Positions 46,740-50,874 of a DNA stretch of 64,000 nucleotides are shown here, one piece after another. The position numbers and the translations under genes were made by a program. Source of the DNA: Oerskovia flava (GTDB taxonomy: Bacteria > Actinomycetota > Actinomycetes > Actinomycetales > Cellulomonadaceae); the NCBI RefSeq assembly GCF_026163685.1, contig NZ_JAOXSR010000001.1, positions 558,001-622,000 on the forward strand, written 5' to 3'. The notes below the pieces were generated by a model, which was not told the origin of the DNA, did not search any database, and was given only the letters and a program-made list of their open reading frames with translations. The number at the start of each line of letters is the position of its first letter. Position 1 is the first letter of the stretch.

Positions 46740-47849
46740 TCAGTCGGCCGGGGTGGGAACCGGGCCGGTGGTGCTGCCGACGACGAGCTCGACGTCGAGC
46801 AGCACCGGGGCCGGGTTCTCCCCGGCGAGGAGTGCGATGACGGCGCGGCCGAGCTCGGCGCCCTTCTCGGCGAGCGGCTGGTGCACGGTCGTCAGCACGT
46901 CGGGGCTGAGCCACGGCAGGTCGAGGCCGTCGAACCCCGCGACCGACACGTCCTGAGGGACGCGCAGCCCGAGCTCGTGCGCCGCGAGCAGAGCCCCGGC
47001 GGCGAGGAGGTCGGAGTGGGCGATGAGCGCCGTCGGCCGCTCGCGCACCGGCACGTCGAGCAGGGCGAGGCCGGCGGTCTTGCCGTGCTCGACGAGCGAC
47101 GCCTCGGTCTCCCACGTGATGACCGGCTCGATGGCGTCGCGGACCCCGGCGAGCCGGTTGGCCGTGGGCGTGCGGTCGACCTGCGCGAGCCGGGCGGCAT
47201 CGATGGGGCCCGTGCGCTCGGCGGTGCCGAAGGACAGCGCGATCTCCGCGATCCGGGTGTGGCCGAGCTCGACGAGGTGGCGGACGACCGCGGCGGTGCC
47301 CTCCCGGTCCTTGATCCCCACGAGTCCCGCCCCGGGCACGGCGCGGCCCTCGCCGACCACGACGGGGACCCCGCGGCGCTGGAGCGCTGTCAGGGTCGCG
47401 TCGTCGCTGCTGACGCCCCAGACGAGGACGGCGACGTCCATCGCGGCGCTCTCCACGAGGGGGTCGACGGCGCGGGCCGGGTCGTCGCTCGGGATCCCGG
47501 GGATGAGCAGGACCCCGAGACCGTTCTCGCCGAGCGTGGAGACGAGCCCGTCGAGGACCTGTACCGAGACGGGATCGCGGAACGAGCGCTTGAGCTGGTC
47601 GCCGATGACGACACCGACGATCCCCGAGCGGCCGGACCGCAGCTGGCGCCCGAGCGGGTTCGGTCCCGTGTAGTCCAGCTCGGCCGCGGCCGCGAGGACC
47701 CGGTCCCGGGTCTCGGGGGTGATCGGGCCGGCGCCGGAGAAGGCGAGGGACGCCGTCGAGACCGAGACGCCCGCGAGCTCGGCGACCTTCGCGAGCGTCG
47801 GCCGGGACCCGTGGGTCGGGGTCGCCGGGCGCGGCGTCGCTCCGTTCAT
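46740..47849 (-). CDS. LacI-family transcriptional regulator
   Basis: This DNA-binding repressor (369 aa, ATG preceded by GAGAGG) has the LacI helix-turn-helix (TLAKVAELAGVSVSTASLAFSG) with a hinge helix, then a periplasmic-binding-like effector domain. The recognition helix reads V-S where CebR-type regulators, as I recall them, have R-G. It is therefore unlikely to be the protein that binds the CebR box on its other side. It is divergent from the first MFS gene, whose 5' end carries two LacI-type palindromes. The ligand is unknown, probably a sugar. Confidence 0.93.
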   Translation of the reverse strand: MNGATPRPATPTHGSRPTLAKVAELAGVSVSTASLAFSGAGPITPETRDRVLAAAAELDYTGPNPLGRQLRSGRSGIVGVVIGDQLKRSFRDPVSVQVLDGLVSTLGENGLGVLLIPGIPSDDPARAVDPLVESAAMDVAVLVWGVSSDDATLTALQRRGVPVVVGEGRAVPGAGLVGIKDREGTAAVVRHLVELGHTRIAEIALSFGTAERTGPIDAARLAQVDRTPTANRLAGVRDAIEPVITWETEASLVEHGKTAGLALLDVPVRERPTALIAHSDLLAAGALLAAHELGLRVPQDVSVAGFDGLDLPWLSPDVLTTVHQPLAEKGAELGRAVIALLAGENPAPVLLDVELVVGSTTGPVPTPAD

Positions 47850-47932
47850 CGCGTTCCTCTCACAAGATCTTCGAACAGTTCTGCAGAAAAGTAGATTGAC
47901 GGCGCGGCCAGCGTACCCGCAGACTGGTGACC

Positions 47933-49513
47933 ATGCCTCGAATCGATTCGAAGCCCAGGTCCGACGGTCGGCTCGAATCGATTCGAACCGCAGGACCGGG
48001 CGATTCCTCCCTGACCCGTGCCCGCTGGGCCCTGCTCGGCATCTTCCTCCTCTCCGGCATCACGATGTCGAGCTGGCTCGTGCGCATCCCCTCCGTGCGC
48101 GACGCGCTCGACATGTCGCCGGCCGATCTCGGCGTGGTGCTGCTCGCGGGCGCCGTCGGTGCGCTCGTGACGGTCGCCGCGGCCGGACCCATCGTCAACC
48201 GGTTCGGCGGTCGCATCGCCTTCGTCGTCTCCGCGGCGCTCTTCGGCGCCGCCTTCACGCTGCTCGGCCTCGGGCCGACGCTCGGCAGCGTCGAGCTGCT
48301 CGCCGGCGGCATCTTCCTCACCGGTGTCGCCTTCGCGCTCGGTAACGTCCCCATGAACGTCGAGAGCGCCGGCATCGAGCGCCGGATCGGGCGAACGATC
48401 CTGCCGCAGTTCCACGCCGCGTTCAGCGTCGGCGCCGTCGCGGGCTCGCTCGTGGGTGCCGCGTGCGCGTACGCGGACGTCCCCGTCCTCGTCCAGTTCC
48501 TCGTGACCGGCGCGGTCGCCACCGCCTGGCGCCTCGTGAGCATCCCGGCGATCGTGCACGACACGGCCCGTCGCCCCGCCTCGTCGGCGGGCGACCGGCC
48601 CGCGGTGCACGGCGAGGTCGCCGACGCCGTCGTCGACGTCGAGAGCGCCGGTGTCCGCCTCGCCCCGCGGCGCACCCGCCTCGGCGCGGCACTCGGCGCG
48701 TGGCGCGAGCCGCGCACCCTGCTCATCGGCCTCGTCATCCTCTCGGCCGCCCTCTCGGAGGGTTCGGCGAACGACTGGTTGTCCCTCGCCGTCGTCGACG
48801 GGTTCGACCAGACCGAGGCCGTGGGCGCCATCGTGTTCGGCACGTTCGTCGGCGCGATGACCGTCATGCGCCTCGCGGGCGCTCGGCTCATCGACCGCTT
48901 CGGCCGGGTCACGGTCCTGCGGGCCTCGGGCATCACCTCGATCGCCGGCCTGCTGCTCTTCGGCTTCGCGCCCACGCTGCTCCTCGCGGGCGTCGGGGTG
49001 GTCGCCTGGGGCTTCGGGGCGGCGCTCGCGGTCCCGATCGGGATCGCGGCTGCGTCCGACGACCCCCTGCGGGCCGCGAGCCGCGTCTCCGTCGTCTCGG
49101 CGTTCTCGTCGATGGCCTCGCTCGCCGCGCCCCCGCTGCTCGGTCTCGCCGCCGAGGCGATCGGCGCACGGCACGCCCTCGTGCTCATCGTCGGCGCGAT
49201 GGTGCTCAGCGTGCTCCTGGCACGTCAGGTCGCGCCACCCGCACCCTCGACGCCCGTCGCCCCGCTGCCGGCGGAGCTCACCGGCGGCGAGCCGCCGGTG
49301 TCGGTCACGCAGCAGCCGGAGGAGCCGCAGCGGGACGAGCACCAGCAGGCGCGCGTCGTGGTGACCGCGGACCTCGCGTCCGACGGGCACGAGGCGCACG
49401 ACGTGCGAGGCACCCACCGCAGGCGTGGTGGCCGTCGGGCACCGGGTCGTAGCCTGGGACGGGGCCGTCGCGGCGCCCGTTCCGCCCGTCGTCGTGAGGA
49501 GACCTCCCCGTGA
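47933..49513 (+). CDS. MFS transporter (YbjJ/fucose-permease-like), first of a tandem pair
   Basis: This twelve-helix transporter is 526 aa from the ATG at 47933; a GTG at 47927 is an alternative. A TTGACG...CAGACT promoter-like pair (47896, 47920) would start transcription at the ATG, so the mRNA may be leaderless. MFS features are WLVRIPSVRDALDM, NVPMNVESAGIERR and a mid-protein repeat beginning SEGSANDWLSLAVVDGF. It is clearly paralogous to the next gene. The tail after the last TM (about 110 residues) is Arg/Gly-rich and looks untypical, perhaps read-through of former intergenic DNA. Control by the divergent LacI regulator is likely. Confidence 0.88.
   Translation: MPRIDSKPRSDGRLESIRTAGPGDSSLTRARWALLGIFLLSGITMSSWLVRIPSVRDALDMSPADLGVVLLAGAVGALVTVAAAGPIVNRFGGRIAFVVSAALFGAAFTLLGLGPTLGSVELLAGGIFLTGVAFALGNVPMNVESAGIERRIGRTILPQFHAAFSVGAVAGSLVGAACAYADVPVLVQFLVTGAVATAWRLVSIPAIVHDTARRPASSAGDRPAVHGEVADAVVDVESAGVRLAPRRTRLGAALGAWREPRTLLIGLVILSAALSEGSANDWLSLAVVDGFDQTEAVGAIVFGTFVGAMTVMRLAGARLIDRFGRVTVLRASGITSIAGLLLFGFAPTLLLAGVGVVAWGFGAALAVPIGIAAASDDPLRAASRVSVVSAFSSMASLAAPPLLGLAAEAIGARHALVLIVGAMVLSVLLARQVAPPAPSTPVAPLPAELTGGEPPVSVTQQPEEPQRDEHQQARVVVTADLASDGHEAHDVRGTHRRRGGRRAPGRSLGRGRRGARSARRREETSP
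47938..47951. promoter_or_regulatory. LacI-type operator, copy 1
   Basis: TCGAATCGATTCGA is a perfect palindrome centred on CG, as in LacI-family sites. It lies 5 bases inside the MFS coding start and next to the divergent LacI gene. Confidence 0.7.
47973..47986. promoter_or_regulatory. LacI-type operator, copy 2
   Basis: This is an identical 14-bp palindrome 35 bp from copy 1, also inside the MFS coding region. Two exact copies in a 49-bp span are very unlikely by chance. Confidence 0.7.
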
Positions 49514-50874
49514 GCCGTGCCCGCTCCTCCGCCGCGGTCGCCGAGGTGGGGGACCGCACGAGCCGGACGGCGTCCTGGGCGGTCTTCGCGGTCTTCTTCT
49601 TCAACGGCTTCAACTTCGCGTCCTGGGCCTCACGGCTGCCCGCGGTCCGGGACTCCCTCGGTTTTGCCGAGGCCGAGATGGGGCTGCTCCTGCTGTTCGC
49701 CGCGACGGGCTCGCTCATCGCCCTGCCGCTGTCCGGGATGGTCGTCCAGCGCATCGGTGCGTCGCGCGCGGTGGTCGTGTTCGCCACCGTCAGCACCGCC
49801 GGGCTGGTCGTGGCCGTCCTGGGCGTCGGGGAGGGCTCCCCGCTCGCGGTGCGCGTCGGGCTGTTCTGCTTCGGTGTCGGCACCGGGGTGTGGGACGCCG
49901 CGATGAACCTCGAGGGTGCGGCGGTCGAGCAGCGTCTCGGCAAGGCGATCATGCCGCGGTTCCACGCCGGGTTCTCCTTCGGCACCATGGCCGGCGCCGG
50001 GGTGGGCATCGTCGCGGCCGCCCTGTTCGTGCCGGTGCAGTGGCACCTCGTCGGTGCGGTCTCGATGAGCCTGGTCGCCGTGCTGTGGTCGGTGCGCTAC
50101 TTCCTCCCGGCCGGTGAGGTCCACGAGGCCGACGTCGCGCCGGACGCGTCGGCGGACCCTGCGACGGCAGCCGCACCGATCTCGGCCGCGGAGAACGCCC
50201 GCAGCGCAGGCCGCGCCTGGCTCGAGCCTCGCACCCTGCTCATCGGTCTCGTCGTGCTCGCCGCCGCGCTGACAGAGGGTGCGGCCAACGACTGGGTGAG
50301 CCTCGCGGTCGTGGACGGGTTCGGCACGTCCGACGCGATGGGCGCAGTCGGCCTCGCGGTGTTCCTCACCGCGATGACGGGGATGCGGCTGCTCGGCACG
50401 GGGCTGCTCGACCGGTTCGGACGGGTCGCGATCCTGCGAGTGTCCGCCGGGCTCGCCCTGGTCGGGCTGACGATCTTCGCGCTCGTCCCGACGCTCTGGG
50501 CCGCGCTCGTCGGTGTCGCGCTGTGGGGCACCGGTGCCGCGCTCGGGTTCCCCGTGGGGATGAGCGCTGCCTCGGACGACCCGCGCCACGCCGCGGTCCG
50601 GGTGAGCGTCGTCGCGACGATCGGGTACTCGGCGTTCTTCGTCGGTCCGCCGCTCATCGGCTTCCTCGCCGAGGTGGTCGGGTATCGCGAGGCCCTGTTG
50701 GTCATCGCTCTCCCCGTGGTCGTCGGCCTGTTCGCGATCAGCGCCGCTCGCCCGCTCCCGGGTGCGGCGGGCTTCGCGCCCGACGCCGCGGCCCCGGCGC
50801 AGGGGCTGGGAGACCAGGCGGAGGACCGGGCGCAGGACCCGGCCGAGGACGTCGCGACGGGCCAGCCGAACTAG
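49510..50874 (+). CDS. MFS transporter (YbjJ-like), second of a tandem pair
   Basis: This 454-aa protein starts at a GTG overlapping the stop of the previous gene. The two share architecture and motifs: WASRLPAVRDSLGF, AAMNLEGAAVEQRLGKAIMPRFHAGFSFG and TEGAANDWVSLAVVDGF. It probably arose by tandem duplication. The substrate is unknown; sugars are suggested by the LacI context. Its TAG stop forms part of the -10 hexamer of murB. Confidence 0.9.
   Translation: MSRARSSAAVAEVGDRTSRTASWAVFAVFFFNGFNFASWASRLPAVRDSLGFAEAEMGLLLLFAATGSLIALPLSGMVVQRIGASRAVVVFATVSTAGLVVAVLGVGEGSPLAVRVGLFCFGVGTGVWDAAMNLEGAAVEQRLGKAIMPRFHAGFSFGTMAGAGVGIVAAALFVPVQWHLVGAVSMSLVAVLWSVRYFLPAGEVHEADVAPDASADPATAAAPISAAENARSAGRAWLEPRTLLIGLVVLAAALTEGAANDWVSLAVVDGFGTSDAMGAVGLAVFLTAMTGMRLLGTGLLDRFGRVAILRVSAGLALVGLTIFALVPTLWAALVGVALWGTGAALGFPVGMSAASDDPRHAAVRVSVVATIGYSAFFVGPPLIGFLAEVVGYREALLVIALPVVVGLFAISAARPLPGAAGFAPDAAAPAQGLGDQAEDRAQDPAEDVATGQPN

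Follow-up and report, generated by a model that had tools for sequence, protein, structure and literature searches.

The 64,000-nucleotide stretch of Oerskovia flava DNA that we analysed (the window) encodes an MFS transporter, MFS1, on the forward strand (47933-49513; Pfam MFS_1), followed by a second MFS transporter with a GTG start (MFS transporter 2; 49510-50874, forward strand; Pfam MFS_1) that overlaps the end of MFS1. The two are presumed to form a single operon, and their tandem order recurs in relatives. Divergent from MFS1, and separated by 83 bp from its ATG at 47933, lies a reverse-strand gene (46740-47849) for a 369-aa LacI-family regulator and putative repressor, as the first-pass annotation of this DNA had described. 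Its product matches the Pfam families LacI (PF00356, 1.5e-11) and Peripla_BP_3 (PF13377, 1.2e-24), as well as the LacI-family PDB chain 3h5t (3.4e-34). A PDB sequence search with MFS1 gave no match at 1e-3, and a search of a plasmid collection with 47700-48100 gave no match.

The 14-mer TCGAATCGATTCGA, a perfect even palindrome with CG at its centre, occurs twice within the first 18 codons of MFS1, at 47938-47951 (predicted operator 1) and at 47973-47986 (predicted operator 2). Both copies are exact, start 35 bp apart and lie in the open reading frame, in agreement with the earlier description. Operator 1 encodes R-I-D-S (residues 3-6), and operator 2, which is read in another frame, encodes E-S-I-R (residues 15-18).

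The promoter proposed in the first-pass annotation could be located as two forward-strand hexamers separated by 18 bp, a predicted -35 TTGACG at 47896-47901 and a predicted -10 CAGACT at 47920-47925, the latter a weak -10. TTGAC is found 41-43 bp before operator 1 in 41/42 MFS1 loci (defined below) and CA[GC]A[CA]T 18 bp before operator 1 in 20/22 loci of the ATG class; as sequence geometry, the distances from -35 and -10 to the ATG are nearly fixed across relatives. The hexamer positions predict that transcription begins near 47933, at the A of the start codon ATG (47933-47935, forward strand), refining the earlier estimate of about 47932 and implying a leaderless mRNA. By eye, the window has no Shine-Dalgarno sequence before this ATG. 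Besides the ATG itself, the stretch from the upstream stop to codon 31 has no in-frame ATG, GTG or TTG other than a GTG at 47927. On the reverse strand, TACGCT at 47910-47915 is a candidate lacI -10, with AG[CA][GC]TA[CT] present 27-30 bp before operator 1 in 39/42 loci. If TACGCT is the lacI -10, operator 1 would overlap the lacI -35 region, suggesting autoregulation.

Copies of the motif in the genome

The first-pass annotation had called for a genome search with the 14-mer. We observe 13 places with ≤2 mismatches in the O. flava genome, of which 3 are exact, 4 carry a single mismatch and 6 carry two; one two-mismatch place overlaps a one-mismatch place. A control motif read backwards gave none. 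The three exact copies compare with 0.001-0.007 expected per genome from the window composition (0.0011 for independent bases, 0.0073 for a first-order and 0.0018 for a second-order Markov model). Within the window, the count at 3 mismatches is 3, no more than chance (shuffle mean 2.09), and we therefore place weight only on near-exact copies. Many copies unrelated to the regulator, which would have spoken against the earlier proposal, were not found; a single exact copy lies elsewhere, before another MFS gene.

This third exact copy (L085:5015-5028; G000 C18:115514) lies upstream of an unlinked MFS gene, 18 bp from its ATG; the product of that gene is nearest to the Cmx/CmrA and AraJ models, below their cut-offs. 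We searched 36 relatives for this gene, of which 26 matched at 1e-60, and fetched 20 loci, 18 from the family. In the interval from -110 to +30 relative to the extrapolated start, 11/18 family loci, the O. flava one included (10/17 relatives), have a site with ≤2 mismatches, as does one of the two same-order loci, there at the edge. In the stretches read the site precedes the likely start of the gene; a scripted scan found no in-frame start after the site in L184, L187 and L191. One of the one-mismatch copies (L089:4226-4239; G000 C1:367725) is centred in a long inverted repeat, hairpin- or terminator-like, and is for that reason probably not an operator.

Conservation beside the lacI orthologue

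Scanning with the LacI protein and keeping the best 80 of 152 relatives, we searched up to 580 bases at the start of each lacI gene and found a site within 3 mismatches in 64/80 lacI loci. The 16 loci lacking such a site include all 10 Promicromonospora and 3 Myceligenerans loci. The paired motif is present in 31 of the 221 genomes of the family, in exactly one place each, and the control search gave none in the 221. Two genera, which we read as Cellulosimicrobium and Oerskovia, carry the pair in 17/17 and 7/7 genomes. A lacI orthologue adjoins the pair in 31/31 genomes carrying it, 30 of them read as loci and the 31st (G233) placed ~80 bp from lacI by coordinates. The orthologue is found at 1e-90 in 203/221 genomes, so the pair in precisely this form is missing from most lacI-bearing genomes; site forms seen in Cellulomonas, such as TCAAATCGATTCGA, fall outside the search pattern. 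At L139 and L148, from genomes 81 and 87% complete, lacI matches in separate pieces, through either sequencing error or decay, and the operator pair is kept. Even palindromes with a central CG, beside a regulator gene and conserved with it, together with the frozen silent sites described below, support the earlier reading of these predicted sites as LacI-type operators.

The sites might nevertheless be bound by another regulator, for example another LacI paralogue, the adjacency to lacI being a by-product of synteny. ATG-nn-operator patterns occur at 61 places in 35/221 family genomes (control 0), which we sorted into 28 in the MFS1 gene, 25 of the form ATG[AT]CTCGTA[AT]CGATTCGA, and 8 others, some of which look fortuitous. 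The second group marks a GH13-type gene, represented in O. flava by an alpha-amylase-family gene (L086:4107-5882; G000 C18:59106; Alpha-amylase PF00128) in which codons 2-6 spell the operator-like TCGTATCGATTCGA. At the 15 of 25 GH13-type places that were read, translations run into the WWRDAVIYQVYPRSF motif, or towards it where the stretch ends. CGT and GAT are fixed in 15/15; their shares among synonymous codons in the gene bodies are 7.2% and 0.5%. A GAGGA stretch precedes the ATG, so the gene is not obviously leaderless. In all 15 loci, a LacI gene other than the MFS1-side lacI lies upstream. That a near-identical sequence heads a gene downstream of a different LacI gene gives binding by another regulator some footing, but double sites stand beside the lacI orthologue in 31/31 genomes and nowhere else in the 221, and we consider it unlikely that the divergent LacI protein is not the one that acts here.

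Operator layouts and predicted translation of the operators

To compare layouts we used 42 MFS1 loci, comprising the window, 39 named loci whose nearest MFS gene is MFS1-type, and L139 and L148, added for carrying the pair. Named loci with an MFS2-type neighbour, four loci with no MFS match (L043, L057, L071 and L077) and 30 further loci (L092-L121), many seemingly of the same species as named ones, were left out. Two operators are present in 37 of the 42 and one in 5. An ATG five bases before operator 1 defines the ATG class of 22 loci, the ATG itself being no result of that count; 15 loci have two operators without this ATG and 5 have one operator. In whole genomes, the ATG at this position is found in 17/17 and 7/7 members of the Cellulosimicrobium- and Oerskovia-type genera. 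The 22 ATG loci have a spacing of exactly 35, keep ATG, operators and TM1 in one frame with no stop between, and have a stretch from operator 2 to TM1 of five lengths (71, 89, 95, 107 and 119), all of one phase. The 15 other two-operator loci have spacings of 31-36 and mixed phases. Open frame and phase thus place the sites of the ATG class within translated codons, as far as the sequence can be read.

Other layouts were seen outside this class. Cellulomonas loci have, by eye, a GTG after a purine-rich stretch downstream of the operators, so the operators there look like leader; Cellulomonas and Sanguibacter carry the same promoter and operator pair in an apparent untranslated leader. In Isoptericola loci there is just one site, which ends in TTTGACC and could overlap a -35 box. 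In the Sanguibacter-type loci L060, L063, L068, L081, L110, L150 and L151, MFS1 seemingly starts at ATC or ATT after a Shine-Dalgarno-like stretch. These are 7 of the 8 Sanguibacter-type loci scanned (~5 distinct sequences), L149 being outside the search form, and L060, L110 and L151 have no canonical in-frame start from the upstream stop to ~70 bases downstream.

Such apparent ATC/ATT starts raise the alternative that the operators lie in an untranslated leader in O. flava too, with translation starting downstream at an unusual codon and the ATG being incidental. For 13 Cellulosimicrobium loci, pN/pS is 1.72 in the spacer and 0.83 in the tail, little sign of coding; third-position GC outside the operators is 0.74-0.75 in spacer and tail versus 0.95 in gene bodies. 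Oerskovia (5 loci) looks coding: all 12 differences in the spacer are synonymous, and the tail value is 0.15. A structure model predicts MFS1 residues 1-22 to be disordered (pLDDT < 50), with the TM1 helix running from residue 24; the weak coding signature is consistent with a weakly constrained, disordered tail, leaving some doubt. An incidental ATG, however, sits poorly with its presence in every member of the MFS1 clade described below and with an open frame held in phase with TM1 across five tail lengths in 22 loci. Nor does the window offer a substitute start: there is no in-frame ATG, GTG or TTG after ATG 47933 up to codon 31, and, by eye, no in-frame ATC or ATT with a Shine-Dalgarno sequence. 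We regard an untranslated leader in O. flava as improbable, and favour translation of both operators from ATG 47933.

DNA-level constraint inside the codons

Among the 22 ATG-class sequences, the eight codons that lie wholly inside the operators have 0 synonymous and 210 nonsynonymous pairwise differences, with all 210 confined to the central A/T positions in the two palindromes (I/N, D/V, S/T and I/F). Such pairwise comparisons are not independent of one another; even so, other parts of these genes differ plainly from the operators, with a pS of 0.379 in the adjacent spacer, 0.261 in the tail and 0.313 in a TM stretch. Among the operator codons that are kept are GAT, GAA, CGA and ATT, whose shares of their codon families across the gene bodies of the 22 loci are 1.5, 1.7, 4.5 and 0%. 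Operators 1 and 2 are read in different frames yet keep the same DNA. Silent sites frozen despite rare codons, with changes confined to the central A/T positions, argue for constraint at the DNA level, so that the DNA signal rather than the protein appears to be preserved in the first codons of MFS1. The suggestion in the first-pass annotation that the N-terminus was shaped by operator needs is strongly supported by this codon-level constraint.

The palindromes are very unlikely to act instead in RNA, as a long 5′ mRNA hairpin between the two copies that controls translation or termination: although operators 1 and 2 pair in the minimum-energy structure of the 5′-most 100 nt (z = -1.93, 9/200 shuffles as good), full 14-bp pairing is present in 14/22 ATG-class and 1/15 leader-class loci, the left half of the leader-class operator 1 varies against a right half invariant in 15/15 and breaks the stems without compensation, 5 loci have one operator only, and 47700-48200 has no Rfam match up to E 1. 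Compensatory pairing was not seen, with the unexplained exception that three of four operator-2 central A/T variants (L017, L083 and L139, not L082) still pair with operator 1 at those positions.

Proposed mechanism

Taken together, we estimate a probability of about 75% that MFS1 is expressed from a leaderless mRNA repressed by the divergent LacI protein through two operators that also encode the N-terminal tail. The mRNA would start at the A of ATG 47933; counted from there, operator 1 would occupy +6 to +19 and operator 2 +41 to +54. When no inducer is present, operator 1 (centre +12.5) would hold a repressor dimer that blocks loading or escape of RNA polymerase, and a dimer on operator 2 (centre +47.5) would halt polymerases that pass operator 1; ligand would free both operators. 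The lacI -35 region may be covered as well when repressor sits on operator 1. The first-pass annotation had proposed that bound repressor acts by roadblock, which fits operator 2. Operator 1 would fall within the footprint of the initiating polymerase, at the position of lacO1, so that lacO1-like occlusion is more likely there than roadblock. We infer occlusion at operator 1 and roadblock at operator 2. Helical phasing was rejected as evidence of cooperation between the operators; the spacing, here 35 bp or 3.3 helical turns, varies from 31 to 36 bp in relatives and thus does not clearly point to cooperative binding.

Relation to known systems

LacI-family operators are known near +11 (E. coli lac O1) and +53 (the gal internal operator), resembling the centres at +12.5 and +47.5 found here. 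lacO1 is untranslated, however, and the lac and gal site pairs are much further apart and work by looping, which we do not propose for the MFS1 operators. By appearing to have become part of the code of the MFS1 protein in Oerskovia, Cellulosimicrobium and related soil bacteria, this control switch would be a natural case in which regulatory DNA constraint overrides protein and codon constraint, and operator scans limited to upstream regions can miss intragenic switches of this kind.

In the parts available, a survey of LacI-family regulons describes palindromes of even length with CG at the centre, tandem sites ahead of ~20% of operons with intersite peaks at 13, 22 and 32 bp, and <1% of LacI-family sites in coding regions (PMC4052901). 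The motif type is common to that survey and to MFS1, whereas both MFS1 sites are in the coding region. According to the accessible text on AcrC, a MalR-type regulator of Actinoplanes, its acbD operator lies downstream of the transcription starts and is said to block RNA polymerase (PMC5526262). AcrC is likewise an actinobacterial LacI-family regulator with an operator downstream of the transcription start, but its operator is in an intergenic leader rather than in codons and has another motif.

The precedent that we set beside MFS1 is AnsR, a GntR-family regulator of the leaderless ans operon of Corynebacterium glutamicum. From the portions of that report available, the transcript starts at the A of the ATG and an inverted repeat in ansR lies at +5 to +19 in the coding region, as shown by experiment; its authors suggest a roadblock mechanism, and they connect conserved residues at the N-terminus with the occurrence of similar sites in relatives (PMC9145765). 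The likeness is that of an actinobacterium, a leaderless start (here predicted) and, in MFS1, a site at +6 to +19 in codons. AnsR differs in being GntR-type, in having one site, in the regulator's own gene, and in its experimental basis, binding and start being predicted for MFS1; those portions describe no relatives with the site in the untranslated leader of the same gene (PMC9145765). Among the matches listed by a literature search of titles and opening abstract lines, with subscription journals mostly uncovered, none dealt with a pair of LacI operators inside the first codons of a leaderless gene, and a search on a Cellulosimicrobium LacI operator, with the same coverage of journals, found nothing.

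Evolution of the layout

With the tail left out, the MFS1 tree groups the 22 ATG loci in a single clade (SH-aLRT 87); one change accounts for the ATG state. When the tree is rooted with MFS2, the leader layout falls outside the ATG clade; because the outgroup branch is very long, a gain of the ATG that turned an older untranslated leader into coding sequence is likely but not proven. An ATG arising at the start site in one clade would have made the older, operator-bearing leader coding, and since then DNA recognition would have fixed the silent sites and dictated most of the R-I-D-S and E-S-I-R residues. Close relatives seemingly have the same operators as non-coding leader, which makes an origin of the N-terminal extension from regulatory DNA testable.

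Whether operator-to-protein capture is recurrent, with repressor sites in the leaders of leaderless or short-leader actinobacterial genes becoming opening codons, is a tentative proposal to which we give somewhat less than an even chance. Besides MFS1, its basis is the GH13-type gene next to a different LacI gene, which repeats the ATG-nn-operator layout. If true, operator capture would give unrelated proteins the same M-x-R-I-D-S start, and N-terminal peptides common to unrelated proteins can be operator footprints.

The midpoint-rooted LacI tree places the window protein with Oerskovia, Cellulosimicrobium, Isoptericola and Promicromonospora (59 rows, support 99), apart from Cellulomonas, Actinotalea and Sanguibacter. 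Two loci (L035 and L069) have titles that conflict with the trees: a Sphaerisporangium-titled locus sits inside Cellulosimicrobium and one Cellulosimicrobium-titled locus sits with Cellulomonas, which suggests that these assemblies are mislabelled or contaminated.
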